From Bacteroidetes bacterium RIFCSPLOWO2_12_FULL_37_12 (lineage in GTDB: Bacteria > Bacteroidota > Bacteroidia > 2-12-FULL-37-12), in assembly GCA_001769655.1 (NCBI GenBank), contig MEPC01000024.1, forward strand, positions 1 to 64,000: DNA of 64,000 nucleotides, read 5' to 3'. Under the pieces are notes generated by a model that did no database searches, was not told the DNA's origin, and saw nothing but the letters and a program-made list of their open reading frames with translations. Positions 4,304 to 39,308 of the stretch are shown here, one piece after another (position 1 is the first letter of the stretch; each line of letters starts with the position of its first letter). The translations under genes were made by a program, and so were the position numbers.

Positions 4304-5734
4304 ATGAAACTCAGCCTGGCTCTTTTTGTTCAAGTACTTCTTTGTAACATTTCCCTTTTTTCCCAAAACATTGAAATCCAATTGGGCAATTCAACCATTG
4401 CCTCCAATGAATATTATACCATCACTTTGGTTGTCCGCAATGAGAATTTAAAAAGTTATAGCCCATTCCCTGAAATTAAGGGATTTACCAAAAGAGGCAC
4501 ATCCTCTTCCTCTTCTACCAATATTTCCAATGGGAGAATCAGTTCGAGCCAGAGTATAATTGCCAATTATTTGCCGGTAGGACAAGGAACTTTTACATTA
4601 CCGGCTTTTAGCATGACTGTAAACGGAAAGGAAGTACGTTCGGAAGGCGCTACTATTAAAGTGGGTCCTGCCCAACAATCCCAACCCTCAACATCGTATG
4701 ACCCCTTCGCTGATTTCTTTGGAAACCGCAATCAACCGCAGGAATATGTAACGGTGGAAGCGGATGCATTCTTCGGGGTTATTTCAAATAAAGAGGAGGT
4801 ATTTACCGGCGAAGGATTTAATCTTACATTGGCATTTTATGTATCACAATCCAATAAAGCACAAATGAATTTTTATGATTTGCAAGGGCAACTTCCTGAT
4901 ATTTTAAAGAAAATAAAACCTAAAGATTGCTGGGAAGAAAATTTCGCCATTGAAGAAGTGTCACCACAACCGGTTCTGATTAATGGTAAAAAATATACTA
5001 TGTATTGTTTTTATCAGGCAAATTTTTATCCCCTGAAAAATAATCTTGTTAAAATCCCTTCGGTTACGCTGAAGATGATAAAATACGATGTGGCAAAGTC
5101 CTATTCTTTTTTTGGACAGAGCCGGAAAGAACAGATTACGGAATTTACTTCACGACCTGTAACGATTAAGATCAAGGACTTGCCACCCCATCCATTGAAA
5201 GACCAGGTTTCAGTTGGAAATTTTCGATTATCAGAGAAAATTAATAAAGAAGAATTAACCACTGAGCAGGGAACCAATTATTATTTTAACATAGAAGGAG
5301 AAGGAAATATTGCGGGTATCCAAAAACCGGAAATTCCTTCCGACCCATCTCTGGAAATATATCCTCCTGATATAAATCAATCCATCAGCAGGGGAAATAA
5401 CCGTGTGACGGGCTCAAAAAAGTTCACATATTATTTAGCTCCGGTGGAACCCGGTGTTTATTCACTCTCCAAAAAGTTTCTATGGATTTTTTTCAATCCG
5501 GTCACTGCAAGGTATGACACACTAAAATCAAATTATACCCTTCAGGTTACCGGTGAAACCCGAAAAAATGCTTACATTTCCGGCTCAGACCTGGGTGTTT
5601 TCTATAACCGGATACCGGCTGAGAGCAACCGGATTTATTTTTACGACACCTATAAAAAATACCGGTTGATGGGAATGATTGTGCTGGCGGTGCTGGCAGG
5701 GGCGGTGTTGTGGATGAGGGTGAAGAGGGGGTAG
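4304..5734 (+). CDS. batD: BatD-family membrane-anchored protein
   Basis: 476 residues with an N-terminal signal peptide (residues 1-20, ending in LFSQ), an extracytoplasmic beta-rich body and one C-terminal transmembrane helix around residues 452-470, followed by a short basic tail (MRVKRG). The N-terminal pattern (EIQLGNSTIASNEYYTITL, then NGRISSSQS and YLPVGQGTFTLP) matches BatD proteins, which accompany BatA/B/C/E and MoxR in Bacteroidota aerotolerance operons. BatD's biochemical role is not established; it is thought to act in the envelope with von Willebrand-domain Bat proteins. Here no batA, batB or moxR is adjacent, so this copy stands outside the usual operon. The ccmC-like gene begins 36 bp downstream on the same strand and may be co-transcribed. 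Confidence 0.88.
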   Translation: MKLSLALFVQVLLCNISLFSQNIEIQLGNSTIASNEYYTITLVVRNENLKSYSPFPEIKGFTKRGTSSSSSTNISNGRISSSQSIIANYLPVGQGTFTLPAFSMTVNGKEVRSEGATIKVGPAQQSQPSTSYDPFADFFGNRNQPQEYVTVEADAFFGVISNKEEVFTGEGFNLTLAFYVSQSNKAQMNFYDLQGQLPDILKKIKPKDCWEENFAIEEVSPQPVLINGKKYTMYCFYQANFYPLKNNLVKIPSVTLKMIKYDVAKSYSFFGQSRKEQITEFTSRPVTIKIKDLPPHPLKDQVSVGNFRLSEKINKEELTTEQGTNYYFNIEGEGNIAGIQKPEIPSDPSLEIYPPDINQSISRGNNRVTGSKKFTYYLAPVEPGVYSLSKKFLWIFFNPVTARYDTLKSNYTLQVTGETRKNAYISGSDLGVFYNRIPAESNRIYFYDTYKKYRLMGMIVLAVLAGAVLWMRVKRG

Positions 5735-5770: not shown

Positions 5771-6433
5771 ATGAAATTATCCTGGTGGAAAATAACATCT
5801 ATTCTGTTAGTATCCTATAGCGTCATCGGCGGATTATTAATGCCAGTGCCACGCATTGCTATTGTGAATGAAACCATCCGCAATCAATATTACCACGTCA
5901 CCATGTGGTTTGCTTTATTAATCATATTAACGGTCTCTTTAATTTTTTCCATCCGTTTCTTAATTACTCAAAAAATGGAAGATGACGATGTGGCTGTCGA
6001 ATTTTCAAACCTTGGGTTTTTATTCGGAATCCTGGGATTAAGCACCGGCATGGTTTGGGCAAATTTCACATGGGGCGATTGGTGGAGCGGGGATGTAAAG
6101 CAGAACATGACCTTAGTGGCATTATTGATTTATGCCGCTTATCTCGTATTGAGAAATTCTATGGAAAATGATTTCCTAAGAGCAAAAGTCAGCGCAGTTT
6201 ATAATATCTTTGCATTTTCCAGCTTAATTCCTTTATTGGTAATTGTGCCCCGTATGTACGATTCCCTTCATCCGGGAAGTGGTGGTAATCCGGGATTTAA
6301 AGTTTACGACATGGACTTTTGGCTGAGAATCGTTTTTTATCCTTCCGTAATTGGTTGGACCCTGCTGGGAACCTGGATAGCAACGATGTGGGTGCGGTTG
6401 AGAAGGGTGGAGAGGAGTGGAAATAAAGAATAA
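5771..6433 (+). CDS. ccmC: Heme exporter/cytochrome c biogenesis protein CcmC
   Basis: 220 residues with six predicted hydrophobic helices and the tryptophan-rich heme-handling motif WGDWWSGDVKQ around residues 102-112. This motif and the length fit CcmC of System I cytochrome c maturation, which presents heme to CcmE outside the inner membrane; larger CcsA/CcmF proteins are excluded by size. It is followed by a ccmD-like gene and ccmE, giving a C-D-E order. No ccmA, ccmB, ccmF or ccmH lies in the neighbourhood, so the rest of the pathway must be encoded elsewhere or be absent. Confidence 0.9.
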   Translation: MKLSWWKITSILLVSYSVIGGLLMPVPRIAIVNETIRNQYYHVTMWFALLIILTVSLIFSIRFLITQKMEDDDVAVEFSNLGFLFGILGLSTGMVWANFTWGDWWSGDVKQNMTLVALLIYAAYLVLRNSMENDFLRAKVSAVYNIFAFSSLIPLLVIVPRMYDSLHPGSGGNPGFKVYDMDFWLRIVFYPSVIGWTLLGTWIATMWVRLRRVERSGNKE

Positions 6434-6620: not shown

Positions 6621-6872
6621 ATGAAAATATTTTTTCGATTGGTTTGCGTCATTCATCTACTCCTTTTTTCATCCATTTTAATAGGAGCGCAAGGAGATTC
6701 CACAACCGGAAGCGCTTCGGATGTTGAAATGGCTGATCTGATGCGCTCTAACGGAAAGATTTATGTAGTTCTGGCGGTTGTATTGATGGTTTTAGCGGGG
6801 TTGATAATTTATATTATTCGATTGGATAGAAAGATTAAAAAGATGGAAGAAGATACTAAGAATAAAAATTAA
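6621..6872 (+). CDS. CcmD-like small membrane protein
   Basis: 83 residues with a cleavable or retained N-terminal hydrophobic segment (residues 4-22), a short polar region, a transmembrane helix around 48-66 (YVVLAVVLMVLAGLIIYII) and a charged coiled C-terminus (RLDRKIKKMEEDTKNKN). This layout and its place between ccmC and ccmE match the CcmD-like proteins of Bacteroidota. CcmD is a small subunit that helps release heme-loaded CcmE from the CcmABC complex. ccmE starts 7 bp downstream, so the two are co-transcribed. Sequence identity to proteobacterial CcmD is not visible; the call rests on size, topology and position. Confidence 0.75.
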   Translation: MKIFFRLVCVIHLLLFSSILIGAQGDSTTGSASDVEMADLMRSNGKIYVVLAVVLMVLAGLIIYIIRLDRKIKKMEEDTKNKN

Positions 6873-6879
6873 CTCACGA

Positions 6880-7290
6880 ATGAAAAAATCCCACCTCATC
6901 GCTCTCATAACAGTTGCCGTAGCCATTGCCGTAATAATTACGATGGCAAATGATGCCAGCACGTATGTGACATTTAAAGAAGCCCGAAATTTATTGGCAG
7001 AAAACAATAGCCAGAAAGTTCACGTAGTAGGTGCTTTGGTAAAAGCAACCGATGGAACTATAGAAGAATTTTCTTACGACCCGGAAAAAGATCCCAATTA
7101 TTTTACATTTCTATTGAAAGATACTTTGGGAAATAAAGAAAAAGTCGTATATTACGGTGCTAAGCCACAGGACTTTGAGAAAAGTGAAAAAATTGTGGTC
7201 ATTGGTTCAATGGAAAAAGATTTTTTCAGGGCAGATAAGATTTTGATGAAATGCCCTTCGAAATATACAGCGAAAGAAGGGGATATTTGA
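6880..7290 (+). CDS. ccmE: Cytochrome c maturation heme chaperone CcmE, Cys (CxxxY) variant
   Basis: 136 residues: an N-terminal membrane anchor (residues 5-21) and an OB-fold periplasmic domain (VHVVGALVKA, then YYGAKPQDFEKSEKIVVIGSM). In classical CcmE the C-terminal motif HxxxY binds heme covalently through His. Here the equivalent position reads MKCPSKY, so C125 replaces the His and Y129 is kept (CxxxY). Cys-type CcmE proteins are known from Desulfovibrio and archaea, where they accompany a variant System I. The protein ends soon after the motif (TAKEGDI), without the long flexible tail of proteobacterial CcmE. It forms an operon with the upstream ccmC and ccmD-like genes. Confidence 0.9.
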   Translation: MKKSHLIALITVAVAIAVIITMANDASTYVTFKEARNLLAENNSQKVHVVGALVKATDGTIEEFSYDPEKDPNYFTFLLKDTLGNKEKVVYYGAKPQDFEKSEKIVVIGSMEKDFFRADKILMKCPSKYTAKEGDI

Positions 7291-7444: not shown

Positions 7445-9121
7445 ATGAAAAACTTCCTATCCCTATTCAAATCCAAAGCCGTTCGCATAACCGGTATTTT
7501 TATGCTTTGCGGAATCCTGGCAGGACTGATACTAAAGCCCGATGCCTCCCCCTATTTTGAAATAGCCAAAAATTTAGACGTGTTTGCATCCCTCTACCGT
7601 GAAGTAAATGCCTATTATGTGGAAGACGTGGAACCCTACAAACTCATTAAGAAAGGGATTGATGCCATGCTTGAATCGCTCGACCCTTACACAAACTTTA
7701 TTCCCGAAGAAGAAATTGAAGATTTCCGGTTTGTTACCACCGGTGAATATGGCGGAATTGGCGCCGTCATCTCTGAACAGGACAATGACATAATAATTCT
7801 CGAGCCATACGAGGACTCACCGGCATTGAAAGCAGGGTTGGAAGCGGGGGATAAAATTCTGGAAGTGGATGGAAAAAGCACCAAAGGAAAAACCACAAAT
7901 GATATCAGCAAAATTCTAAAAGGACAACCCGGAACGGATGTTACTTTAACCATTCAGAAATTTATTGATAAAAAAACGATTAAAGTCCCTGTGACCCGCG
8001 AAGAAATTAAAATTGACAATGTGGCTTATCAATGTATGCTTGATTCAAACACGGCTTATATTAATCTGAAAGGATTTACGCAAAAGGCATCCCGGGAAGT
8101 TAAAGATGCTTTTACTACTTTGAAAGATAACGGAGCAAAAAAGTTGATTCTTGATTTGAGGGATAATCCGGGTGGGTTGTTACATGAAGCAGTAAATATC
8201 AGTAACATTTTTTTACAGAAGGGAAGAGAAATTGTAAGCACGCGCGGAAAAGTCAAAGAATGGGACAAAGTATATGAGGGTTTAAATACACCGGTGGATA
8301 TAGATATTCCGATGGTTGTATTGATTAACCGGGGATCTGCTTCTGCTTCTGAAATTATTTCGGGAGTTATTCAGGATTATGACCGTGGGATAATTATCGG
8401 TGAAAGAAGTTTTGGAAAAGGGTTGGTTCAGACATCAAGACCGCTGAGTTATAAAGCGCAGTTGAAAGTAACTACTGCAAAATATTATACTCCCAGCGGG
8501 CGTTGCATACAAGCTGTAGATTATGCACACCGCAACGAAGATGGAAGTGTAGGAAAAATACCTGATTCTTTGCGTGTGCCATTCAAAACAAAAAATGGCA
8601 GAGTAGTTTATTCGGGAGGCGGCATCGAGCCCGATATTACTATTGAAAGAAAACCGTTATCAGATCTTGCAAGTGTTTTGATTCTGAAAAGAATGATATT
8701 TAATTACGCATTAAAATTTCATAAAGAACATTCCACTATAAAACCGGTTAAAGATTTTGTTTTGGATGAAAATGATTACAAGCAATTCCGGAACTGGCTC
8801 GTGGAAAATAAATTTGAATATCAGAATATTCCGGAAAGGGAAGTGGAACAATTCAAAACGCGTCTGGAAAAACTATCTGTTTCAAACGTTGTTAAAGAAA
8901 CTATTGAAACCCTTGAGAAAAATATAAAAGCAAATAAAAACGATGAGTATGAAATCAATAAAGAAGAGATTAAACAACTATTGAAAGAAGAGATTGCACG
9001 ATTGTATTATTATCAGAAGGGTTACACGGAAGCAACACTCAAGAACGACCAATGCATACTTTCTTCAAAGGAGATTTTGAATAATGCTGACCGGTATAGT
9101 GCTCTCTTGAAAGGAAAATAA
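7445..9121 (+). CDS. C-terminal processing (S41) peptidase with PDZ domain
   Basis: 558 residues from the ATG at 7445. A longer open frame begins at 7379, but its extra 22 residues are encoded by the GTAATAC repeat array and precede the real signal anchor (MKNFLSLFKSK, then IFMLCGILAGLIL). Domains in order: signal anchor, helical N-terminal region, PDZ domain (about residues 85-165), and the tail-specific protease core. The Ser-Lys dyad is S300 in GSASASE and K325 in SFGKGLV, with the family's 25-residue spacing. A helical C-terminal extension of about 130 residues follows. It acts outside the inner membrane on C-termini of envelope proteins. It is not closely coupled to ccmE (gap 154 bp). 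Confidence 0.92.
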   Translation: MKNFLSLFKSKAVRITGIFMLCGILAGLILKPDASPYFEIAKNLDVFASLYREVNAYYVEDVEPYKLIKKGIDAMLESLDPYTNFIPEEEIEDFRFVTTGEYGGIGAVISEQDNDIIILEPYEDSPALKAGLEAGDKILEVDGKSTKGKTTNDISKILKGQPGTDVTLTIQKFIDKKTIKVPVTREEIKIDNVAYQCMLDSNTAYINLKGFTQKASREVKDAFTTLKDNGAKKLILDLRDNPGGLLHEAVNISNIFLQKGREIVSTRGKVKEWDKVYEGLNTPVDIDIPMVVLINRGSASASEIISGVIQDYDRGIIIGERSFGKGLVQTSRPLSYKAQLKVTTAKYYTPSGRCIQAVDYAHRNEDGSVGKIPDSLRVPFKTKNGRVVYSGGGIEPDITIERKPLSDLASVLILKRMIFNYALKFHKEHSTIKPVKDFVLDENDYKQFRNWLVENKFEYQNIPEREVEQFKTRLEKLSVSNVVKETIETLEKNIKANKNDEYEINKEEIKQLLKEEIARLYYYQKGYTEATLKNDQCILSSKEILNNADRYSALLKGK

Positions 9122-24196: not shown

Positions 24197-25001
24197 ATGA
24201 TAACCATTGAAAAAATCCATCACAAGGGGGAATACCGCATTGCGGTTCATTTTCCCAGGGAAAAAAATCTTATAGATAAGTTAAGAACTATTCCGGGTAC
24301 GTTGTGGAGCCAGACAAAAACCACATGGCATATACCGTATTCAATGGATGCTTATAAAAAATTATTGGAATTATTTCCGGAGTTAAGATTGGCACAAAAA
24401 GAAACAACACGCAAATCTTCGAGGGTTTATTATAGGGCTAAACAAATAATTTATGAAGAAAAACAAAAACCTGCTATTTATAAAAAAGAGGATAAAAAAA
24501 ATCATTATAAAGTTTTATCTGAAACACAGGGCTATTTTATGCCTTGCATATTCCGGTGGATTAAGGGTTAGTGAATTAGTGAATATAAAAATTAGTGATA
24601 TTGACAGCAAAAGGATGGTAATCACATTGCGTCAAGCGAAGGGGAAAAAGGACCGGCAAGTAATGTTAAGCGAAAAATTATTAGAAATACTTAGAGTATA
24701 TTTTAAGGAATATAAACCAAGCACATTTTTATTTGAAGGACAGAGTAAAGAGCAATACAGTAAACGAAGCATAGAGGAAATAATTAAGAACGCAAAGAAA
24801 AAAACAGGGATAAAAAAGAAAGGGAGTATTCATGCTTTACGGCATAGCTTTGCCACTCACTTATTAGAGGGGGGGACTGATTTGATTACCATAAAGGAAT
24901 TGCTTGGACATGCCAGTTTAAAAACGACAGCTATTTACACACATGTGAGCACAAAACAAATCAGCAAGGTGCAAAGTCCATTAGACAAAATAGGGCTATA
25001 A
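24197..25001 (+). pseudogene. Tyrosine recombinase (integrase), frameshifted and internally deleted
   Basis: Two overlapping frames make up one recombinase. The first (24197-24571) starts MITIEKIHHKGEYRIAVHF and encodes the arm-binding N-terminal domain. The second (from about 24453 to the stop at 25001) encodes the catalytic domain with Arg I in YSGGLRVSELV, the Lys-containing beta-hairpin QAKGKKDRQVML, HxxR in HALRHSFATHL, and His/Tyr in LGHASLKTTAIYTHVS. All catalytic residues survive, but the frame changes between about 24450 and 24530, near an A8 run, and the usual core-binding (SAM-like) domain of roughly 90 residues between arm and catalytic domains is missing. It is therefore unlikely to work as a recombinase. 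Confidence 0.85.
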
Positions 25002-25016
25002 TGAAAAAGCTCCAAC

Positions 25017-25158
25017 TGAGTTAATCCAGACAAAGAGTTGAGTAATATTTTTTTTATATTATTAATAATATTGTATTTTTGCAAGTGGGTTATAAAAACA
25101 ACAAAAATCATGAAAATCAAAATTGAGTTAATCCAGCCAAAAAGATGAGTAATATTTT
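25017..25158. repeat. 35-bp direct repeat downstream of the integrase remnant
   Basis: TGAGTTAATCCAG opens both copies and TGAGTAATATTTT closes both: 25017-25051 and 25124-25158, matching at 32 of 35 positions. Each is followed by an AT-rich stretch ending in a TAnnTTTG element (25074-25081 and 25187-25194). The position 15 bp after the recombinase stop is where attachment sites of such integrases are often found, but no core site can be proved. This repeat accounts for the first part of the 25002-25514 gap. Confidence 0.7.
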
Positions 25159-25163
25159 CGTAA

Positions 25164-25194
25164 TTGATTGGTTATTAATATTTTAGTATATTTG
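25164..25194 (+). promoter_or_regulatory. Candidate Bacteroidota promoter upstream of the defence-like module
   Basis: TTG at 25164-25166, a 20-bp spacer and TATATTTG at 25187-25194 match the Bacteroidota -33/-7 pattern (TTG and TAnnTTTG). It points toward the 1663-residue protein, whose ATG is 320 bp downstream, beyond the palindromic repeat at 25317. Confidence 0.5.
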
Positions 25195-25316
25195 CAGTTG
25201 AGTATAATAATGTGTTACCTGCAATGCTGGACAACGACCGTGCAACCATTAAACTGACTGACATGAAACAATCGGATATCGGGACAACAACTTTCGGACT
25301 GACTGTCAAACACGAC

Positions 25317-25463
25317 AGCCAACGCAAAGAAGTTTTATTTTTTTCCACCGCACATTTTTTGTTTTTTAATTTTATGGCTACCGCACAAAACACACTTTCA
25401 TTTTTTTGCCGACACACGAATCCAATGCAGAAAAAAATGAAAGAGTGTTTTCTCCAACGCTTT
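25317..25463. repeat. Cassette-border palindromic repeat, copy 1
   Basis: It opens with AGCCAACGCA and closes with TCTCCAACGCTTTA. Inside, CACTTTCATTTTTTTGC (25393-25409) pairs with GCAGAAAAAAATGAAAGAGTG-like sequence (25427-25447). The same opening and closing blocks bound the repeat at 32114-32240; the inner arms differ in sequence but keep the hairpin. It ends about 50 bp before the first gene of the module. Confidence 0.7.
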
Positions 25464-25514
25464 ACTAATAACCAAGAGACAGAATCCTATCTTTGACTAC
25501 AGTATAAATTTTCA

Positions 25515-28500
25515 ATGGCAAAAAAAGTAAAAAAACAAAAGCAAGAACGAAAACCATTTCATCTTTTTAAGGGGATGTTGCGATTGGTTTCATCCGAGTT
25601 TGAAAAACGATTTAATAATTTCAATAACGAGCATCAAGTATTTACAGAGTTGGGGTGGTCAGTTGATTCAAATAGGAATGGACTTCTTATTGACTTATCT
25701 CAAATCAGGTGGGTTGAACTTGGTGCAGCAGCACAACTTGTTTTACTTATTGAAAGTGCGAAGAAACAAGGATTGAAAATCATGATTGCTTTGCCTCTTA
25801 ATAAATTAAGTAAAGGAGAGAGTGAATCATTGGTTAAAAGCAAAGCCAACTCAGATACAGAATTTCAAAAAAAGTCAGAAGTATTTGAAGGATTGAGATT
25901 ATCAAGAGAGTATGCAAAAAATTATTTATCAAATATTCAGTTTCAGAGAACATCGGTTTGTCCGCATATAAAAACTGGTGAAGTTGTATTTACAGAGGAT
26001 TATCAATTTGAAGCCGAGAAAACAAACGAATCTGAAACTGAAATAGAAAAGAAATCCGCAAGCGAAATATTACGAAGAATAAGAAGACCTGATGAGATTG
26101 GCTACAGATTTCTTATTCCTCTTACTTGGTTGAAAGCAAAACAGCACAATCACAGTTTAGATTTTATTGAAGAAAAATTTACAGATGTATTGAGTCAATC
26201 TGAACGAGGACTTGATGCTATTGATGCACAAGCGATAAAAAATGTAATCATAAATGAACTTTTAAAAAATGTTAGGGAACATTCTAAATGTGATGATGCG
26301 TTAATTTGCGTTGCGTTACAGCCGAGTAAAATACTTACCGCAAACGACTATTTGCCATGCGAAAGAAACTTTATTGAGTGGACAAGTAAAACGAACACAA
26401 ACTATATTTCAATTTTTTTCGGGGACAATGGAGATGGCTTGTGCAGAACACTTGAGCCAGCATTTAAGTCCAACTCTAATGAAAAAGCTAATGACTATAA
26501 TATTATTAAATGGGCATTTGATAAATGGTCAACAAGCAAAACTGATGAAACTCTTAGGGGTACCAAAGGGCTTTACAGAATTCTCAGGATAATTAATAAA
26601 TACAATGGACTAATCGCTATAAGAACTGCTCATGAAAATGCAGGATTTCAAAAAGGCGGTCTTGAAAGTTCAAAGTTTGTTCACCAAACGATAGAAAATA
26701 AAAAAAGTCTGAACATCGGATTGCTTCCCGGGACATTTTTGAAAATGCAATTTTCTCCATTCAAGGAGTTAATAAAATTCAATATTACACCTCATATTGC
26801 TCAATACAAACAAGACGATGATTATAAGTGGGTAACAAAAACAATCCGATTAGATACAAGGAATCCAAAAGAAACTTTCGTTAACGATTTATCGGTAAAA
26901 AAACTTTTCGGAGAACAAAAAACTAATGTTCTCATTTTGATTGATGCAAAAAACAGTAAACTTTCAAAACCTGATGAAATAGAAGATTCAATAAAAAATC
27001 ATCTTTTGCATTTAAGTGAAGCAAGACACCCAAACGGTGTTGTTGTTTATGGCTTCCCAACAGGTTGGGAGAATATTGAAACAATTGTAAATTCTGTCAA
27101 CTCGTTAATTCAAGAGAAAAGAATAAAACCAGAAGTAGATTCTGAAGCTATTCATCCAGACAAAGAAGATATTTATGACCCTGTTCTTGTGTTAGGTGAG
27201 AACCGTCAATTCTGTTGGGTAGGAGACGACACAAATATTATTTCATGCCTCAATGAGCTTTATCGTAGTGAACAGCCCCCCAAAAAAATTACTAAATTAG
27301 AATCCTTTAACTCGCTTGATTTAAAATCACAGACAAGAGTATTACAATATTTCATGAGTGATGATGCAGTCGTAACTTTGGAATATGGTCAAGCATTACG
27401 GTTTAACTTTAGCAATCTTAAAAATCATTTTTCAGAGCAACTAAAACTCAAGCTAAATGAAACAATAAAGGAACATAAGGAGAATCAAAAATATTATGTA
27501 ACTCCTAATTTACGCAATGTAAAATATTGGGTGAACATTGATAATCTTATAAAGGGTGACATGAAAGGATATGCTTTTGCACTGAGTTCAGCACTAAAAG
27601 AAATTGATTCAACACTTCCTGAAAATCTCACCAATTACAAAATACTAATTGACAACCAAGATTCATTTCAGTTGGCAGTAGAGTTTTCAGGTTGGATAGG
27701 AATACCAAAAAAAAATATTATCAATTTCAATGATGAAGTTGATGGACGATTACCAAGACGAAATCCAATTTTTGAGGAGAAAGACAATGTAATAATTCTT
27801 ACAACAATTATTTCTACAAAAGAAACTGCAAGAAGGTCTTTGAAAGCAGTGTTAAGAGATTTGGCTAACCCTATTGCTGTGTTAGGCATAATAAACCAAA
27901 GCAATGATATACCCATTGCTGCATGGGATAATAAAAGACCGACAGTATCACTTATAAATAATGTTGATTTTGAAATTTCACAAGAGGAAATTTCAAAGCA
28001 CAACTTACAACCAATTTTCAAAGCACCTTTTGGCTACAGTGATGAACCGACTGACAATGAATCAAAACCTGACAAAGAGATTGAAAAGATTTACAATTTA
28101 ATAACCGAACAAAAAGCGTTACATTTTAGCCATATAGGGAAAACAAACAGCCGACATTTTACTTTCTATCTTAGTGCAACAAGATTATTGAACGATGAAG
28201 AGAAATCTGAGAAATTAATTTACGGAAAGTTTTATGACAGAATAAAAGAATGGCTTGATGATATAGGAGAAAACACATTTGACATTTGGAGACCAACTCC
28301 AGATTTTAAATTATTAAATCCAGTAAATAAAATCACAAATAAAATTTCTAACTATTTTGCGGAAAAAAGAAAATACAAGTGCAACAATATTTCCGAAATT
28401 AAACGAGTAGCAAATTATGGTGAATGGAGTTTGATGAACCCAAGGGAGTATCAGATGAATCCTTGTGAAAATATTGTGATTGTAGATTGGGGAAGTTTAA

Positions 28501-30506
28501 CAGGCAACACCACCCAACAAATGATAAATCTTGCAGCACAAGAAGGGAAGAAAAATATACTTGTCTGCATTTTATTTTCTCAATTACCTTCTAAAGAGGA
28601 AGAATTTTTAATAAACATAAAAGAAGTAAAAGGGCAAAAGAAAAAAAATAAACAAACATTGTTTGAAGCACCTGTAATCAGCGAAATAAGTTCAGCCGTT
28701 TCTGTTAATTTCTTTTATCGCCTTCCTCTAAGGAATTATGAATCAGCTGACTGTCCTATATGTGAACACATCCATGCATTAAGAGAGTTTGAAATTAAAG
28801 GCGAGCACATGAGTGACTTCTACATGAAAAGAAGGGAGCGTTTAAAAATTAAAGACAAGGATAAAGCAGATTTACCGCCCCAGGACTTTTATGCTAACGA
28901 TAATATCTTTTTAGATTCAGAAGTGATTCTGCACATGTTCAAGTTTCGTGTTTTATTACAAGAAGCACTTTTGTCAACGAGAAAAAGAAAAGAGATAGAA
29001 GATTACTTCGTTAAGATTTTTCAAAATATTGAAAAAGAAAAAATAAATCCAAAGTCAGAGATTTATTCCATCCTCTATTTTTTATCTACTGAAATAATGT
29101 GGATGCAAAAACCCCCTTTAGTTTTCCTAAGTATTCGTAAAACTCTTTCCCAAATTGCTAAAACTATTGCAGTTTGGAAATTGGAAGAAGCAAGAGATTT
29201 CTTTTTTGATGAACCGACCTTAGTTCGTTACAAGTTTGCGGCAATTAGTGTTCTTAGGTCATCAGATAAAAACGAATTTAATCTTTCAATACATGATATT
29301 TTCGCAAGTGCTAAGAGAGGAGATTTATACTCTCATTCTATAACGCAAAATCTTTTTTATCATACCTACTCCTATTTAAAAAGACAATATCATACTTCAA
29401 GTGAATACTTTGATATTGTAATAAAAAAACTTGATTTGATTTTAAAAGAAAATAATCTGAGTAGCAAATTAAAAAACGTCATTATTTTCTTGCGATACTT
29501 TGCAGAGAAAAGAAAATTTGAAATTGCAATTCCATCTGATACAAAAATGTCAGCGTTTAATAGCTACAAGAAACAAATCATAGACAACTACGGACTAAGC
29601 TACAAGCATAATAATGTCAGCGATGATTTCACAGAGGTGAAACCTATTGATTACTTACAGATGTTGCAAACTCACCATGAAAAGAATTTGTCAGAAGAAA
29701 ACTTAAAATCAATTATTGAAAATTCAGGGTTTGTTAACTGGCTCAGTATAGTTCCGAAAAGATGGTCTGATGTCGCTGCATATCTAAACAATGTCGTAAT
29801 AAATCACTTTGGCAAACTTGATGATTTAGTAAACTCAAAACTATTTTCTTCAAGTGACACTTTGTTTGCAACATTTATCCGACAAATGTTATCCGAGAAA
29901 AAACTATTTGGTGTCAATGACGAATTGACTTTGCAGATTAACGATATTATTACAAACTCTTCTATACTCGGAAGCCGAAGTTTCTTTAATCGCTTCATAA
30001 GTACATGGAATTTTTACTACCAAAGTTTCATGCATGTGAATGCACATGCACCAGCATTATCATGTCCATTGGTTAAAATCGCTGAACAAGCTCCTTGTAA
30101 TTTTTTAGACGCGGTTAATAAGTCAATTGGCGAATCTGAAAGAAAAGCAAAAGGTCAAAATATAAAAATCGATTTTAATTGTAAAATAACCAATGATGCG
30201 AAAATATTTTTTCCGTATAGCCAGCTTAAACGCTTTTTTGACCAAGTATTTTTATATAATCTCTTTACTCATCATATAAATGGGCAAACAATAACAGTTG
30301 CGGTTGAGCAGATTTTAAAATCAGATGAAAGTATCACAATTAGAATAAGCAGTAAGGGAACAAAGCCAAAGGAAAGAAACAGTGGAGGACTAAATAAATT
30401 CGTTACTGAGTTTGCACTGTTCGGAGGACATTTGAATTACGACTATAACAAATCAAGAAAAGAATTTTTAATTGATATTAAACTATTAATTTGGAAAGAT
30501 GAGTAA
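25515..30506 (+). CDS. 1663-residue multidomain STAS / GHKL-ATPase / PRTase-like protein, putative conflict-system sensor
   Basis: No named family is recognised for the whole protein. Visible parts: a basic N-terminus; a STAS-like strand-helix segment at about 55-95 (GLLIDLSQIRWVELGAAAQL); a GHKL/histidine-kinase-type ATPase domain at about 235-420 with N box NELLKNVREHS (247-257), G1 box GDNGDGL (303-309) and G2 box RGTKGLYRI (348-356); two PRTase-like Rossmann segments, NVIILTTIIST (758-768) and NIVIVDWGSLTGNTTQ (986-1001); a CPIC knuckle near 1080; a long helical region; and a second degenerate GHKL-like C-terminus (about 1500-1663). No phosphoacceptor His box of a classical kinase precedes the ATPase. 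It overlaps the next gene by 8 bp, so the two are translationally coupled. Role inferred: signal sensing and ATP-dependent switching. Confidence 0.7.
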   Translation: MAKKVKKQKQERKPFHLFKGMLRLVSSEFEKRFNNFNNEHQVFTELGWSVDSNRNGLLIDLSQIRWVELGAAAQLVLLIESAKKQGLKIMIALPLNKLSKGESESLVKSKANSDTEFQKKSEVFEGLRLSREYAKNYLSNIQFQRTSVCPHIKTGEVVFTEDYQFEAEKTNESETEIEKKSASEILRRIRRPDEIGYRFLIPLTWLKAKQHNHSLDFIEEKFTDVLSQSERGLDAIDAQAIKNVIINELLKNVREHSKCDDALICVALQPSKILTANDYLPCERNFIEWTSKTNTNYISIFFGDNGDGLCRTLEPAFKSNSNEKANDYNIIKWAFDKWSTSKTDETLRGTKGLYRILRIINKYNGLIAIRTAHENAGFQKGGLESSKFVHQTIENKKSLNIGLLPGTFLKMQFSPFKELIKFNITPHIAQYKQDDDYKWVTKTIRLDTRNPKETFVNDLSVKKLFGEQKTNVLILIDAKNSKLSKPDEIEDSIKNHLLHLSEARHPNGVVVYGFPTGWENIETIVNSVNSLIQEKRIKPEVDSEAIHPDKEDIYDPVLVLGENRQFCWVGDDTNIISCLNELYRSEQPPKKITKLESFNSLDLKSQTRVLQYFMSDDAVVTLEYGQALRFNFSNLKNHFSEQLKLKLNETIKEHKENQKYYVTPNLRNVKYWVNIDNLIKGDMKGYAFALSSALKEIDSTLPENLTNYKILIDNQDSFQLAVEFSGWIGIPKKNIINFNDEVDGRLPRRNPIFEEKDNVIILTTIISTKETARRSLKAVLRDLANPIAVLGIINQSNDIPIAAWDNKRPTVSLINNVDFEISQEEISKHNLQPIFKAPFGYSDEPTDNESKPDKEIEKIYNLITEQKALHFSHIGKTNSRHFTFYLSATRLLNDEEKSEKLIYGKFYDRIKEWLDDIGENTFDIWRPTPDFKLLNPVNKITNKISNYFAEKRKYKCNNISEIKRVANYGEWSLMNPREYQMNPCENIVIVDWGSLTGNTTQQMINLAAQEGKKNILVCILFSQLPSKEEEFLINIKEVKGQKKKNKQTLFEAPVISEISSAVSVNFFYRLPLRNYESADCPICEHIHALREFEIKGEHMSDFYMKRRERLKIKDKDKADLPPQDFYANDNIFLDSEVILHMFKFRVLLQEALLSTRKRKEIEDYFVKIFQNIEKEKINPKSEIYSILYFLSTEIMWMQKPPLVFLSIRKTLSQIAKTIAVWKLEEARDFFFDEPTLVRYKFAAISVLRSSDKNEFNLSIHDIFASAKRGDLYSHSITQNLFYHTYSYLKRQYHTSSEYFDIVIKKLDLILKENNLSSKLKNVIIFLRYFAEKRKFEIAIPSDTKMSAFNSYKKQIIDNYGLSYKHNNVSDDFTEVKPIDYLQMLQTHHEKNLSEENLKSIIENSGFVNWLSIVPKRWSDVAAYLNNVVINHFGKLDDLVNSKLFSSSDTLFATFIRQMLSEKKLFGVNDELTLQINDIITNSSILGSRSFFNRFISTWNFYYQSFMHVNAHAPALSCPLVKIAEQAPCNFLDAVNKSIGESERKAKGQNIKIDFNCKITNDAKIFFPYSQLKRFFDQVFLYNLFTHHINGQTITVAVEQILKSDESITIRISSKGTKPKERNSGGLNKFVTEFALFGGHLNYDYNKSRKEFLIDIKLLIWKDE

Positions 30507-32112
30507 CCGAAAATTTAAAATAATTCATTGGGACGATGATAGCGTAATGAAGGGCTTCATTACAGGAACAATACCAAGCGTTCTTAAAGAGTTTGAATGC
30601 GAAGTTGAACAAGGAGATTTCTTTGATTCAAGTGTGCAGTTTGTTGAAAGGTTGAAGAATGTAAAATATGACTTGGTTATTCTTGATATTGAAAATGAAA
30701 CCGACAAGGACAATAAATCTGATGTAGGATTTGAGCTACTGAATGATGTAATTACAACATACAAGAACTCTATTCCGCTCTTAATTTTCTCCCGACACCC
30801 AAGAGTTTTAGAGAAAGTTGGGGAATTCAAAAAAGCACACAATCTAAATATTGAGTTCTTGAATAAAGGACTGAGAGGGGAACCGGCATATCAACAAAGA
30901 GTAAAAGAGAAACTAAAATTATTATTAAATCTTGGTTACCCCGAAGTTAAACTTCTACCCTACAATGATTTTAAAACTAAATCCGCTGTCAAATCAATTG
31001 GACTACACAACTTACAAAGTATTATCTCTCTTTATCTGAGTTCAAAATCAATCCTGAGTAATGACAAGGTTAGTATCAAAGTGATTGCACCTGGTTATTC
31101 AGGTGCGTATGTTTTTGAAGTGGTATTTGGTTCTTTAAGCAAGTTGCTTAAAATTTCTCATGATAAATCCGTTATCGTAAGAGAATATGAAAACCTAAAT
31201 TCATACTCTACATTTTTACCATCCAAAATTAAAATTGATTACGATAAAATTGACCCTACTCAACTTTCTTCCGAAGGATGGTATCCGATTTTTTATGAGT
31301 TGGTTTCATATTCAAATACTCTTTTCGGGTTCATTGCTAAAAACCAGAACCAACATTCAGAAATTGAAGCACTTTTAGCAGAGATATTTTCGGACGAAAG
31401 ATTTTTAAAATTATATCAACACAGAAAAGAATTTGACATCGTAATAAACAAAAATATTTTGGAAGACATTGATAGTGTAAGAGCTTCTTTTATTGAAAAC
31501 GCAGTGAAGACATTAGAACCAATCTTAAAAAAACACTCAAATATTTTTGATAAAAGTATAATTGACATAATCACTGAGCATCATTCCTTTGGAAATATCT
31601 CTGATGCGAAAATTGGAATTCCAAAGTCAAATAAAATCCTATCACATGCGGACTTGCATGCAGATAACATTCTTGTAGATTCTCAAAAATCTCCAATAGT
31701 AATTGACCCCGGCAGTATTAATTACAAATACTGGTCTTATGATATAAACCGACTTTTAATGGATTTATTTATTCGTGGAATCGGACACCAGACACTTGAC
31801 TACTTCGACATTAATTCTATTAAAAAGGATTACAGCATATTTCAAAACATACTTACACGACAAGCAATTCAGGTTGAAAATTTCAAAAGCGATGAAGGTT
31901 TTATTACCGCAATAAATTGGCTTATCAAGAATGTTACAGAGATTCACAAGACAGATTTTGTTGAATGGCAATATCAATTAGGACTTGGGCTTGAGTTATT
32001 GAAGGCATCGTATAAGAGTATTTCACTTCCTGCAAACAAGAGGGCATTGGCTTTATTGTGTGCATGTGAAGCAATAAAAAAAGCAAGTGCAACTTTGGAA
32101 ACAACAACATGA
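30499..32112 (+). CDS. Response-regulator receiver domain fused to an APH-like kinase
   Basis: 537 residues. Residues 1-125 are a receiver domain with the full phosphorylation set: acidic D12-D13, phosphoacceptor D63 (VILDIE), S99 (LLIFSRH) and K123 (FLNKG). Residues about 195-500 resemble the aminoglycoside phosphotransferase/choline kinase fold: a GYSGAYVFEV nucleotide loop (199-208), LLKIS strand (216-220), catalytic loop HADLHADN (383-390) and metal-binding IDPGS (402-406). A helical tail follows. No DNA-binding domain is present. The upstream GHKL protein would be the natural phosphate donor or switch for the receiver, although it lacks an obvious His box. It may belong with the kinase-like ternary-complex-associated domains predicted for bacterial conflict systems; that link is from memory and unproven. 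Confidence 0.8.
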   Translation: MSNRKFKIIHWDDDSVMKGFITGTIPSVLKEFECEVEQGDFFDSSVQFVERLKNVKYDLVILDIENETDKDNKSDVGFELLNDVITTYKNSIPLLIFSRHPRVLEKVGEFKKAHNLNIEFLNKGLRGEPAYQQRVKEKLKLLLNLGYPEVKLLPYNDFKTKSAVKSIGLHNLQSIISLYLSSKSILSNDKVSIKVIAPGYSGAYVFEVVFGSLSKLLKISHDKSVIVREYENLNSYSTFLPSKIKIDYDKIDPTQLSSEGWYPIFYELVSYSNTLFGFIAKNQNQHSEIEALLAEIFSDERFLKLYQHRKEFDIVINKNILEDIDSVRASFIENAVKTLEPILKKHSNIFDKSIIDIITEHHSFGNISDAKIGIPKSNKILSHADLHADNILVDSQKSPIVIDPGSINYKYWSYDINRLLMDLFIRGIGHQTLDYFDINSIKKDYSIFQNILTRQAIQVENFKSDEGFITAINWLIKNVTEIHKTDFVEWQYQLGLGLELLKASYKSISLPANKRALALLCACEAIKKASATLETTT

Positions 32113-32113
32113 A

Positions 32114-32240
32114 AGCCAACGCACAAAAAAATACACTCTTGCAAGTCGCTCAAGGCAACGCTGAAACCAAAGCTTGCAAGAGAGTATTTTTTTCTCCCGC
32201 CCAAGAAAAATTAAAAAAGAGTGTTTTCGCCAACGCTTTA
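32114..32240. repeat. Cassette-border palindromic repeat, copy 2
   Basis: It starts 1 bp after the kinase stop codon with AGCCAACGCAC and ends in TTCGCCAACGCTTTA. The inner hairpin is ACACTCTTGCAAG (32133-32145) with CTTGCAAGAGAGT (32173-32185). The block GAGAGTATTTTTT, CTCCC and CCCAAGAAAAATTAAAAAA is shared with copy 3 at 36175. Confidence 0.85.
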
Positions 32241-32301
32241 ATTAGAATCATACATTTGCAAACAACATTTAAAATAAAATCTAAAGATAAAAAATAATAA
32301 A

Positions 32302-33732
32302 ATGGCAAATCTTGAAAAAAAATACTACATCAATGTAGGAGCAAATGGAACATTTGCAGATTCTGGACAAGTTCACTCAACACCTTCTGATGTTGAAGAT
32401 ATTTTTAAATTCCTTAATGACAGCGACATTGAAAAACTTCTGATATATTTTCATGGAGGTTTGGTAAGTGAGAAAAATGGAATGAATGCAGCAGAATTAA
32501 TGAAAAATTATTTCGCTGATGTAAATTCAAAAAGACATGTTGTTTCCTTTGTTTGGGAAACTGGTCCGATTGAGACAGTTGTCCAAAACCTGAAAGATTT
32601 AAAGGAGTTGACAGGAAAAGATTTGTTTGAGGAAGTAATTAAATTTGTAATCAAAATTGTTGCTAAAAAACTTGGAATATCAGATGCAAGAGGCGATGGA
32701 GAATATTTAAGTGACACAATCATTAAAGAAGAAAAAAATAAAGTTGCACCATTTGAAAATCTTGACAAAGATTTAGGAACAAGAGGCGGTGCAATTATTG
32801 ACATTGATGATGAAGATGAAACATACAGCGAATTTTACAAAAAGTTAGAAGCAGAATCCAAAAATCTTTTGGATAATGAAGCATCTGACGAATTGAAAAA
32901 TATTAATGAGGATAATGAAGAAGTAAGCAGAGGTGGCTTTTTAGTTATAGCGAAAATTGTTGCTCAAATAGCTTTTGCTGTATTGAAACGCTATTGGAAG
33001 AAAACTCATCACGACTTTTATCCTACAGTAATGGAAGAAGCATTCCGAAAAATTTATTTGGATAAAATCGGGCACTGGGGCTGGAAACAAATGAAAGACA
33101 AATCGGATAAAATGTTTCAAAGCAATTCAGGACTTTCGGGAGATGCTCAATATGCCGGAGCATTCTTTCTTGCACTGCTTGACATGCATACAAAAAACAG
33201 AGTAACAGCAGGAAAGAAATTTGAAGTGGAATTAATTGGACATAGTGCAGGTTCCATTGCAATTTGTAACTTGCTGGAGGCAACAGGAAAAAACTTTCCA
33301 TCAATCAGATACAACAATATTTTCTTCCTTGCTCCTGCCTGCCGCACAGATTTGTTTCTTGAAAAGGGAAAGGCAGCAAAGGAGAAAGGATTATTTCAAA
33401 AGTTCAAAATGTTTACAATGGAAGAAAGCAATGAGAAGAAAGACTATTGTATTCCATTCATCTACACACATTCGTTACTGTATATGGTTTCAGGATTGTT
33501 TGAGGATGAAATTGATGCTAAAATTATGGGACTTCACGAACAGTTTAAAGCAATAGGACGCTATTCTGATTTTGACGAGTTGAAGAAATTGAATTCGTTT
33601 ATCAATGATAACAAACTTGTTCTTTCAACCGACACAACAAACACGGATGAAAGTATGCGTTCAAACTCTTTAAAGCATGGAGATTTTGACAATGATGACT
33701 ACACTTTAAAATCAATCTTGAAAAGCATTTGA
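32302..33732 (+). CDS. Predicted serine hydrolase (lipase/esterase fold), putative effector
   Basis: 476 residues, cytoplasmic, no signal peptide. An alpha/beta-hydrolase frame is visible: strand LLIYFHGGLV with an HGG oxyanion motif at 51-53, a large helical and acidic insertion (about 90-305), nucleophile elbow ELIGHSAGSIA with S315 in GHSAG, and strand NNIFFLAPACRTDLF near 340 that could supply the acid. The C-terminal His is not certain (one candidate is in LKHGDFDNDD). Lipases and esterases are common effectors in bacterial immune systems, but the family is not recognised here. It is the first gene of a three-gene unit, 2 bp ahead of the caspase-like gene. Confidence 0.75.
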   Translation: MANLEKKYYINVGANGTFADSGQVHSTPSDVEDIFKFLNDSDIEKLLIYFHGGLVSEKNGMNAAELMKNYFADVNSKRHVVSFVWETGPIETVVQNLKDLKELTGKDLFEEVIKFVIKIVAKKLGISDARGDGEYLSDTIIKEEKNKVAPFENLDKDLGTRGGAIIDIDDEDETYSEFYKKLEAESKNLLDNEASDELKNINEDNEEVSRGGFLVIAKIVAQIAFAVLKRYWKKTHHDFYPTVMEEAFRKIYLDKIGHWGWKQMKDKSDKMFQSNSGLSGDAQYAGAFFLALLDMHTKNRVTAGKKFEVELIGHSAGSIAICNLLEATGKNFPSIRYNNIFFLAPACRTDLFLEKGKAAKEKGLFQKFKMFTMEESNEKKDYCIPFIYTHSLLYMVSGLFEDEIDAKIMGLHEQFKAIGRYSDFDELKKLNSFINDNKLVLSTDTTNTDESMRSNSLKHGDFDNDDYTLKSILKSI

Positions 33733-33734
33733 TT

Positions 33735-34793
33735 ATGAACTATGCAGTTGTAATAGGCATTGACCACTATGACAAAAAACCTTTATCGGCTGCTGTAAGC
33801 GATGCAAAAGGGTTTGCTAAATATTTGTTTAGCAAAAAACTTGTTTCAGGGTCTGCTGATACCATAAATAAATTTAAGGACGAGCATACTGAAATAAATA
33901 TTGATAAGGCACTCCAAGACAACACAGGAACTGATAACCTTAAACTTTTATTGTCCGATACTGACAATCAAATTGCAGATAATAAAGATATTGATAAGGC
34001 GATTGACGATGTTATACAAGATGCAAAAAAACACAGAGCAGAAAAAAATCGCTTGTATTTTTATTTCGCTGGTCATGGCATGGGTGTTACTTATGATAAA
34101 ACAGCATTGTGTTTAAGATTTTGGCCAAATTGGTTTAATCACTGCATTTCAAGTTCTGATTACAAATCTTGGTTAATAAACAAAGGAGTGTTTGATGAAA
34201 TTCTGATTTTTCTAGATTGTTGCAGAGAGTATGACCAAAATATAGATGCAAAGTCTCCTTTTCCCGATTGGGAAACGCCTATTGGCGACAAATCTCCAAA
34301 CATCCTTATTTGTAATGCCACCATGTATGGCAAACTCAGTTTTGAAGTAGGTGCTGATAAAAAAAGAGGAGCATTCACATCTTTCTTAATTCAATCTTTG
34401 AATGGTGATGCAGACAGAAAAAACGAAGGAATAATAACTTCAAACTCTTTAAAAAATCACATCAATAATAATTTTGAAACTTATGCCACACAGCAGGGCA
34501 AGTATCAGCGAGGTGATGCCTTCACTCAAGGAACTAACGGAGATGCTATTGTAATTTGCGAAGTTGAAAACTTAGTTTCAGCACATAATTGTGAAATCAC
34601 TTTTAAGAGAAATTCAAATGTTACATTAAAAGGTAGAGATACTAAACCTATACGAACAGATGATGTTACAGAAGGCGATAAATGGAATTGCAAATTGGAA
34701 CAGGGCTTTAGCGTTTTGATTGACAACCACACCAACGAAAAGAAGTTAATTGAGAATTATTCTGAAAATACAATGAGCTATGTTAAGTTCTGA
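33735..34793 (+). CDS. Caspase-family (C14) cysteine protease
   Basis: 352 residues from the ATG at 33735; a TTG six bases upstream is also in frame but would overlap the previous stop. The N-terminal ~260 residues form a caspase/metacaspase domain: VVIGIDHYDKKPLSAAVSDA opens it, the catalytic His is H114 in YFYFAGHGMG, and the catalytic Cys is C163 in IFLDCCREYD. A beta-rich region (about 275-352) follows. Caspase-like proteases in bacteria act in signalling and abortive-infection pathways, activated by partner proteins. The gene is bracketed tightly by the hydrolase gene (2-bp gap) and the next gene (14-bp overlap), so the three proteins are probably made together. Confidence 0.88.
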   Translation: MNYAVVIGIDHYDKKPLSAAVSDAKGFAKYLFSKKLVSGSADTINKFKDEHTEINIDKALQDNTGTDNLKLLLSDTDNQIADNKDIDKAIDDVIQDAKKHRAEKNRLYFYFAGHGMGVTYDKTALCLRFWPNWFNHCISSSDYKSWLINKGVFDEILIFLDCCREYDQNIDAKSPFPDWETPIGDKSPNILICNATMYGKLSFEVGADKKRGAFTSFLIQSLNGDADRKNEGIITSNSLKNHINNNFETYATQQGKYQRGDAFTQGTNGDAIVICEVENLVSAHNCEITFKRNSNVTLKGRDTKPIRTDDVTEGDKWNCKLEQGFSVLIDNHTNEKKLIENYSENTMSYVKF

Positions 34794-36174
34794 AAATAAA
34801 TATCATGTTACTATTTCTTTCAATCAAAGAATTGAAGGAATACTGTTGTCCCTCGTTAACGGCATTTTAGAAACCGTTTACACAGGAGTTGCGGAGCAAT
34901 TAAGTTTAGAATTGCCAGTAGGCATTTACAAACTGAGAGCAAAGTTTATTGACTATATGCAAGAGTATCCTTTAATCATTGACGAAAACAAGAACTTCCG
35001 TTTAGATTTTGATTATCCTTCTGTTGCACCAATACTTTCATTCAGAACCACGCACGAATACTTTCACGGCAACTGCGAATACTTTAGCAAATTCACAACT
35101 GAAAAAGAAGAAAAAGCAAATCCAAGTTTATTATTTTTTGGAGCGAAATATGACAAGGATAAGTTCCAAAATGTCATAATGGAAAAACTGCTTTCCAATT
35201 ATTCAGTAATCAACAGCGATAACGAAACCCTTTCTCAATTCGACTCGGTAAATGCAAAGTTTAGTAATGACTATGGATGGTTGGCATTTTCAACCAAACT
35301 ACAAAATGGACAATATTTTTTGAAGTGGAACAATGAATCTGAATGCAGAATTTTTCCATTTTACATTTTTGACAATTACCAAACACAATTTTTTATTCGT
35401 TACTCAACATTGCCTGACTTTGAAAACTGTTTTTTCTTTTATACAAAGAAAATGTGTTTTAGTGTTGATGCAGAAGAATACCTTGTGCTCGACAAAATTC
35501 TTTTCGCATTCAAAGATTACAGCAACTATAAATTATTGACTGAAAAAGATATAAGCATCATTCAGCAACACCCCTACTTAGTTACTCTTATTCATATTCT
35601 TCAATCGGAACTAAGTGAAAAACTTGACTGCGAAGATTGTGAACATTTACTGTTGCCTGACTTAATACTTCTTTCGGACAATCCGAATGAAATTGAAAAT
35701 GATGAATTACTCCCTGTGATTTCATCGGTTATGAATAAATACTCCTATAACAAAAAAAATAAAAAAGTATCGTTCAAACCTGCTTCCTTAATTGACAGGA
35801 CAATTGACCATGTTAGATACGATTTGTTTTGGAATAACTTTTCAAAAATTGACAACACAATTGATTGGTTAGACCTGTATTCAAAGTTTATAAATAAATC
35901 TGATTTGTTTCCAGTAAGCAAAAGCGACAATCAAATTGTAAAACTAGGTAAGCGGGTTGCGAATAAATTTGCAAAGGCAAACAAAGACACAATTGAAGTA
36001 AGATTAAATTCCCTTATTGGTAAAATACAAGTTGAAAATTTTGAGAGTAATATAAACGAAACATTTAACAGTATCGGAGATGTATCTGAAATTGCAGACA
36101 AGCTAAACCTACCACCGACTAAAGTTTTGAGAAACTATGAAACTTACAAAGGAATTTATGACAAACTTAAATAG
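34780..36174 (+). CDS. Unknown partner protein of the caspase-like protease
   Basis: 464 residues, no recognised family. The N-terminal ~85 residues look like a small beta-sandwich (YHVTISFNQRIEG, VGIYKLRAKF, NKNFRLDFDY) that resembles in pattern the C-terminal beta region of the caspase-like protein. The middle is mixed alpha/beta with several aromatic-rich strands (FYIFDNYQTQFFIRY). A cysteine pair lies in LDCEDCEHLL near residue 285. The last 30 residues (SEIADKLNLPPTKVLRNYETY) have a helix-turn-helix-like pattern. It starts inside the end of the caspase gene, which indicates coupling. It could be the recognition or adaptor subunit for the protease; this is inference from position only. 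Confidence 0.7.
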   Translation: MLSSENKYHVTISFNQRIEGILLSLVNGILETVYTGVAEQLSLELPVGIYKLRAKFIDYMQEYPLIIDENKNFRLDFDYPSVAPILSFRTTHEYFHGNCEYFSKFTTEKEEKANPSLLFFGAKYDKDKFQNVIMEKLLSNYSVINSDNETLSQFDSVNAKFSNDYGWLAFSTKLQNGQYFLKWNNESECRIFPFYIFDNYQTQFFIRYSTLPDFENCFFFYTKKMCFSVDAEEYLVLDKILFAFKDYSNYKLLTEKDISIIQQHPYLVTLIHILQSELSEKLDCEDCEHLLLPDLILLSDNPNEIENDELLPVISSVMNKYSYNKKNKKVSFKPASLIDRTIDHVRYDLFWNNFSKIDNTIDWLDLYSKFINKSDLFPVSKSDNQIVKLGKRVANKFAKANKDTIEVRLNSLIGKIQVENFESNINETFNSIGDVSEIADKLNLPPTKVLRNYETYKGIYDKLK

Positions 36175-37585: not shown

Positions 37586-37614
37586 TTGATTTGAGATAAA
37601 AAGTTGTATTTTTG
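37586..37614 (+). promoter_or_regulatory. Promoter placed directly at the HTH-ImmA/IrrE gene start
   Basis: TTG (37586-37588), an 18-bp spacer and TATTTTTG (37607-37614) match the Bacteroidota promoter pattern. The downstream ATG at 37621 is only 6 bp past the -7 box, so the transcript would have almost no leader. Confidence 0.6.
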
Positions 37615-37620
37615 CAATAT

Positions 37621-38799: not shown

Positions 38800-39308
38800 G
38801 TATAATTAATAAAAAATTCTGCTTAGATGTTAATGTGCTTATTCAAGCATGGCAAAAATACTACTCCCCAAAAATATGCCCAAGTTATTGGGATATGCTT
38901 AATGAGTTGGGAGCTAATAATATCATCTTCATGCCTGAGATGGTTTATGATGAAATTGTTCGAACAGATGATGATTTGTCAAAATGGTTGAAGTCCAGTA
39001 AAATTCCGATTAGAAAGATTGACGAGCAAGTAACGAAATGTTTAAAAGACATCTATTCAGCTGACCCAAACCACAAATATTTTGTTGATAATACAAAGGC
39101 AAGGTCATTGGCTGACCCATGGGTGATTGCACATGCATTAAGAGAGAACGCAACAGTCGTTACAAAGGAAGAAAAAGTAACAGCATTAAATACTACGAAA
39201 ATTAAAATTCCTAATGTGTGTGAAAATATGAATGTATTTTGGATTAATGATTTTCAATTGATTGTTGAGTTAGGGATTATGTTTAAATGTGAAATGGAAA
39301 CAAAATAA
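38796..39308 (+). CDS. DUF4411 PIN-like protein, putative ribonuclease toxin
   Basis: 170 residues. The first acidic residue is D11 in FCLDVNVLI, with further conserved acids in MVYDEIVRTDDDL and SLADPWVIAHAL (residues near 105-110), which match the PIN-domain acidic site as seen in DUF4411. The family is predicted to cut RNA and commonly follows an HTH-ImmA/IrrE partner, as here with a 4-bp overlap. Toxicity is inferred from the pairing and not visible in the sequence. Confidence 0.85.
   Translation: MSIINKKFCLDVNVLIQAWQKYYSPKICPSYWDMLNELGANNIIFMPEMVYDEIVRTDDDLSKWLKSSKIPIRKIDEQVTKCLKDIYSADPNHKYFVDNTKARSLADPWVIAHALRENATVVTKEEKVTALNTTKIKIPNVCENMNVFWINDFQLIVELGIMFKCEMETK

Follow-up and report, generated by a model that had tools for sequence, protein, structure and literature searches.

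A Cysteine-Type CcmE and a Probable Variant System I in a Bacteroidota Genome, with Their Distribution across a Phylum Sample

A Cys-CcmE of a Probable System I*

The CcmE encoded in the 64,000-nucleotide stretch of Bacteroidota DNA analyzed here (the window, which lies on contig 24 of an assembly of 43 contigs that is 97.89% complete) is very probably the heme chaperone of System I*, a variant cytochrome c maturation (Ccm) pathway, which would be the standard System I of the phylum. By sequence, the genome has the corresponding gene set, the cysteine, a single CcmE, the conserved residues of CcmF and cytochrome c substrates, and neither CcmH nor System II was detected. The assignment of this protein to the Cys type of a variant System I, made in the initial annotation of the window, is borne out by the single CcmE, by the failure to find CcmH and by the occurrence of the same type in 161 of 161 CcmE-bearing genomes of the phylum. 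Within the published System I*, which has a Cys-CcmE and often lacks CcmH, the case is unexceptional.

Cys-CcmE has been reported in archaea, delta-proteobacteria, Chloroflexi, and Firmicutes (PMC3601427, FEBS J 2011 review). The initial annotation was therefore right to name sulfate reducers and archaea as hosts but drew the list too narrowly. The same source gives CPSKY for 25 of 36 genomes, and describes the absence of CcmH in System I* as common, not constant. In the literature searched, mostly without subscription papers, we found no paper describing Cys-CcmE in Bacteroidota, although one may be in print, nor any report of its phylum-wide fixation; Cytophagia and Chitinophagia are named in the legend of a CcmC/CcmD alignment (PMC12077264).

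A Cysteine at the Place of the Heme-Binding Histidine

The gene ccmE (6880..7290, + strand) starts with ATG and encodes a Cys-type heme chaperone of 136 aa, made of an N-terminal membrane helix (residues 3–23) and an OB-fold domain, which scores 52.7 bits against Pfam PF03100 (cut-off 24.6). Textbook CcmE binds heme via a histidine; in place of the HxxxY of the classical E. coli type, the motif here is CPSKY. The C-terminal end of the protein reads ADKILMKCPSKYTAKEGDI (KILMKCPSKYTAKEGDI). In the alignment with CcmE of E. coli K-12, C125-P-S-K-Y129 faces H130-D-E-N-Y134: C125 (codon TGC, 7252..7254, + strand) lies under the heme-binding His130, and Y129 (codon TAT, 7264..7266, + strand) under Tyr134, which we take to be the expected heme-iron ligand. 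This confirms the replacement of the histidine by a cysteine (CxxxY) that the initial annotation had proposed. C125 is the sole cysteine of the protein, and the cysteine of CPSKY is not there by chance, because all 111 aligned CcmE sequences share C125, P126, S127, and Y129.

The top sequence match in the PDB is 2kct, the CcmE of D. vulgaris, which is Cys-type too. A search with a profile of 29 relatives returned five PDB matches, of which four were CcmE sequences, with 2kct the best, and the fifth was Nup160 (E 1.8e-5), which is no CcmE. The stretch corresponding to the motif is MTKCP in 2kct, where it ends with KCP, and LAKHDENY in E. coli 1sr3/8ce8. The predicted structure combines the membrane helix 3–23 with a beta-barrel (mean pLDDT 91), and its confidence drops from residue 121 onward (block means 75 and 58). 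When this model was submitted to Foldseek, 1j6q, 1lm0, and D. vulgaris 2kct came at ranks 2–4, with rank 1 going to a replication protein A chain that has an OB fold.

As first annotated, ccmE is adjoined by ccmC (5771..6433, + strand, 220 aa; PF01578, 62.7 bits) and by a ccmD-like gene, CcmD_alt (6621..6872, + strand, 83 aa; PF20077, 77.8 bits). This group is flanked by the genes of a BatD-like protein (4304-5734, + strand) and of an S41 C-terminal processing peptidase (7445-9121, + strand, starting with ATG). CcmC reaches 54.4 bits, far short of the curated threshold of 186 bits, and its H42 and H167 align with conserved histidines of E. coli CcmC. Its WWD stretch is unusual (WGDWWSGDVK). 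In an alignment of 111 rows, used for the remarks on the histidines and WWD alone and of which 14 rows are probably CcmF because 14 loci showed no ccmC, V109 is unique, 109 rows having a proline, and at the position of G107 a tryptophan is found in 68 rows.

Ccm Genes in the Rest of the Genome

A CcmE profile search of the whole genome gave one match and no second CcmE, so the additional copy with HxxxY that, according to the initial annotation, would have made the case less important was not found. CcmB, CcmC, and CcmF of System I* are all present. Two genes match PF01578 (Cytochrom_C_asm), the ccmC of the window and the gene of an 882-aa CcmF on contig 36, and a CcmB of 218 aa is encoded on contig 39, with no ABC ATPase gene beside it; the two genes ccmB and ccmF, suggested for a genome search, were thus both located. 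The ccm genes are dispersed over four contigs, and ccmF does not lie downstream of ccmE here.

The initial annotation had asked whether ccmH is missing: the CcmH of classical System I was not found with PF03918, which gave nothing above chance in this genome. The two matches at E about 0.5 (best 0.45), one in a YajC-like and one in a peptidase frame, were rejected as spurious. System II (ResB/CcsB with CcsA) was likewise not found, because ResB has no match in the genome and the sole two Cytochrom_C_asm genes are those of CcmF and CcmC. The Ccm pathway has substrates, as indicated by 11 Cytochrome_CBB3 matches, 9 of which are over the cut-off. One DsbD/CcdA-type protein is encoded, within a 739-aa frame.

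The search for ccmA, also suggested at the outset, yielded a candidate, an ATPase of 203 aa (contig 29, 117611-118219), around which the sequence that was read contains no permease gene, but none of the 40 ABC-ATPase matches of the genome passes the curated CcmA cut-off. The contig-29 protein itself scores 92.2 of 131.6 bits against the curated profile, and CcmA ranks third among its NCBIfam matches. Homologs (E ≤ 1e-22) are present in 145 of 161 CcmE-bearing genomes and in 4 of 86 CcmE-less ones (Fisher p about 2e-43, uncorrected for relatedness), and in 19 genomes they lie 1.9–2.3 kb from ccmE. Moreover, an ATPase frame is found directly upstream of ccmB in 13 of 39 fetched ccmB-bearing loci, and the best match of these frames among our genome's own ATPases, compared within 17 stretches, is the contig-29 protein in 10 of 13 cases and another ATPase in 3. 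On these comparisons, the contig-29 ATPase is the best candidate for CcmA, and a probable one. An earlier view that CcmA is absent came from a first motif scan, which found an ABC ATPase in 3 of 80 loci; its signature was too strict, and the homolog data overturned it.

Distribution across the Sampled Phylum

The frequency of the variant in Bacteroidota, raised as a question in the initial annotation, was read from a phylum sample of 247 genomes, drawn evenly. CcmE is present in 161 of them, and all 161 carry CPS[KR]Y; HxxxY occurs in none. Cys-CcmE thus appears to be the norm, not a rarity, in the sampled phylum and, as the Cys type is universal among the sampled CcmE, the single case in the window is less surprising than first implied. 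The motif reading covered the window, 110 loci (L006-L115; CPSKY in 108 and CPSRY in 2), and 50 further loci, all CPSKY. The sampled phylum was taken as Bacteroidota from named relatives (Pontibacter, Hymenobacter, Chitinophaga, Pedobacter, and others), whose CcmE are 47–57% identical to that of the window. The 80 named loci serve only to name relatives and were left out of the motif evidence because they had been retrieved with a pattern containing KCPSKY. The usual gene order in the 110 loci is (ccmB-)ccmC-ccmD-ccmE-ccmF, with 30 of the loci having only 1.5-kb flanks, CcmD unrecognized at some loci and no ccmC seen at 14.

A type of CcmE usually described from delta-proteobacteria and archaea would therefore be the usual one in a large and common bacterial group. 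System II is the phylum's alternative: of the 86 genomes without CcmE, 84 have ResB, so that System I* and System II are almost cleanly separated. ResB matches were also obtained in 15 of the 161 CcmE-bearing genomes, several of them falling inside CcmF frames.

Beside ccmE, 7 of 110 loci (L016, L025, L028, L033, L034, L067, L086) and 7 of 51 (L239, L240, L244-L248) encode a further CcmE-like protein, one that lacks the CPSKY tail. Such a protein is also encoded, unlinked, in one genome (L289 in G062), where it is the 162nd CcmE match, lacks the motif and was left out of the count. Its end is His-rich, like GHVHGG-PYFHATQVY, and the L016 copy has no Pfam match; this protein may be a partner that binds metal or heme. 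Contig L206, labeled as a Bifidobacterium breve MAG, is probably a misassigned Bacteroidota contig, because it encodes a CcmE 52% identical to that of the window.

At E ≤ 1e-3, the CcmH profile PF03918 matched in 7 of 247 genomes, with 2 matches over the cut-off and none of the 7 convincing. We rejected six as zinc-ribbon proteins that carry CcmH-like segments in tandem and one as a histidine-kinase-like frame. A CcmH too divergent for the Pfam profile might accompany Cys-CcmE, as about a third of Cys-CcmE bacteria retain CcmH according to PMC3601427, and as divergent proteins with CcmH-like segments do occur in six genomes of the sample. We nevertheless regard a hidden CcmH as unlikely: the profile finds nothing above chance in this genome, yet it passes the cut-off in four control genomes, 240 of 247 sampled genomes have no CcmH match over chance, and the six CcmH-like proteins are encoded next to unrelated genes. 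In these six (L117, L118, L119, L120, L121, L123), a membrane helix is combined with two such segments that follow the pattern F-C-CG-C...C-C; their genes adjoin permease-like and His/Met-rich genes, not ccm, and the L120 protein scores 36.5 bits against PF03918.

Proposed Pathway and Relation to Known Systems

By analogy with other organisms, CcmE would carry heme covalently at C125, with the chemistry seen there, and the pathway would function without CcmH. CcmC, together with CcmD, would present heme in the periplasm to CcmE; the thiol of C125 would add to a heme vinyl group, with Y129 as iron ligand, to give holo-CcmE, which CcmB and the CcmA-type ATPase would release. Heme would then pass to CcmF, which has the WWD motif and all four of the histidines that serve as heme ligands, and CcmF would attach it to the CXXCH of apocytochromes without CcmH.

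Desulfovibrio System I* (2kct) resembles the present case in the cysteine substituted for histidine in CcmE, the OB fold, and the failure to find CcmH. The cited papers also describe a CcmD there, as here (PMC9084895), and an operon that needs neither CcmH nor CcmG to function in E. coli (PMC3601427). The Desulfovibrio genes form one operon according to the latter source, whereas here they lie at four places. The streamlined Ccm of Methanosarcina acetivorans (CcmABCEF) likewise has a CxxxY CcmE and no CcmH (PMC9084895); archaea are without CcmD, and the CcmF of M. acetivorans is in two parts, whereas this genome has a CcmD_alt gene and one long CcmF. With E. coli System I (CcmABCDEFGH), our genome shares homologs of CcmB, CcmC, CcmD, CcmE, and CcmF with aligned heme-handling residues; it differs in having Cys125 for His130, in that CcmH was not found, and in the length of a CcmF segment (294 vs. 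124 residues).

Another reading is that CcmE holds heme non-covalently, via Y129 and other residues, with C125 in a redox or structural role. CPS could be part of a thiol site, and thioether bonds are usually stable, so that release from a cysteine is not obviously easy (PMC3601427); besides, we found no experiments on any Bacteroidota CcmE in the literature searched. We consider this reading improbable, given that the Cys-type CcmE of Desulfovibrio forms a covalent bond with heme (PMC3601427), that C120 of M. acetivorans CcmE is required for heme attachment (PMC9084895), and that C125, the only cysteine, is invariant in 161 of 161 genomes. A relic ccm gene set, with a non-functional CcmE and cytochromes c matured by another system, might account for genes spread over four contigs and for the atypical WWD stretch of CcmC, but it is barely credible in view of the intact frames, the conserved residues, the cytochrome c genes, and the failure to find System II in the genome.

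The Enlarged Periplasmic Domain of CcmF

In the System I* pathway that we favor, heme attachment would fall to CcmF, whose H212, H343, H299, and H560 align with the heme-ligand histidines of E. coli CcmF. These four residues and W278, W280, and D281 are identical in 35 of 35 CcmF sequences. The roles of the E. coli histidines are partly described in PMC10663686. The periplasmic domain is larger in the Bacteroidota CcmF than in that of E. coli: judged by a simple hydropathy measure, membrane helices in the second half of the protein are separated by up to 294 residues, versus 124 in E. coli, and the median of this longest gap in 61 complete relatives is 267 (range 220–378). None of these 61 has a CxxC. 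The AlphaFold model of CcmF (mean pLDDT 87.2) shows a beta-rich region at about 608–855. Of the 589 residues of T. thermophilus CcmF 6zmq, 579 align with this model (Z 34.1, rmsd 3.2), which indicates that the extra length was added onto a complete CcmF. No convincing match to the enlarged domain was obtained among structures besides 6zmq, a result of little weight because the domain was not folded alone.

A ResB origin of the domain is not supported, and no homology is claimed. Weak PF05140 matches fall inside several CcmF frames and were obtained in 13 of 35 CcmF at E ≤ 0.1, and the match to the C-terminal part of this genome's CcmF (E 0.0054) has its like in E. coli CcmF (E 0.0037). Profile–profile comparison against three ResB sets gave no significant result (probability 3–14%), and CcsBA structures align to CcmF residues up to about 388 only.

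As a hypothesis, the enlarged domain may be a candidate stand-in for CcmH. The wider proposal, that System I* is fixed in the phylum and that this beta-rich domain, roughly doubled in size, replaces CcmH in holding the apocytochrome, making CcmF a CcmH-independent heme lyase, is one that we put forward tentatively and judge rather doubtful. Were it true, Cys-CcmE and a "large CcmF" would together make up a separate solution shared across the phylum, and laboratory Bacteroidota would lend themselves to the study of heme transfer by way of a cysteine. The domain is a concrete place to look for heme attachment without CcmH, and its phylum-wide enlargement may be novel.

Other Features of the Window

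Away from the ccm genes, the interval 24453-36174 opens with a phage-integrase-family gene (24453-25001), followed by a run of five genes encoding a 1663-aa protein without Pfam match, an APH-domain protein, two unmatched proteins, and a caspase-like protein (33729-34793; PADLOC caspase, E 3.1e-18). This interval looks like an undescribed defense-type island. Adjacent Peptidase_M78 (IrrE-type) and DUF4411 genes at 37612-39308 are a probable toxin–antitoxin pair, and a HipA_C domain protein of 328 aa is encoded at 44198-45184.
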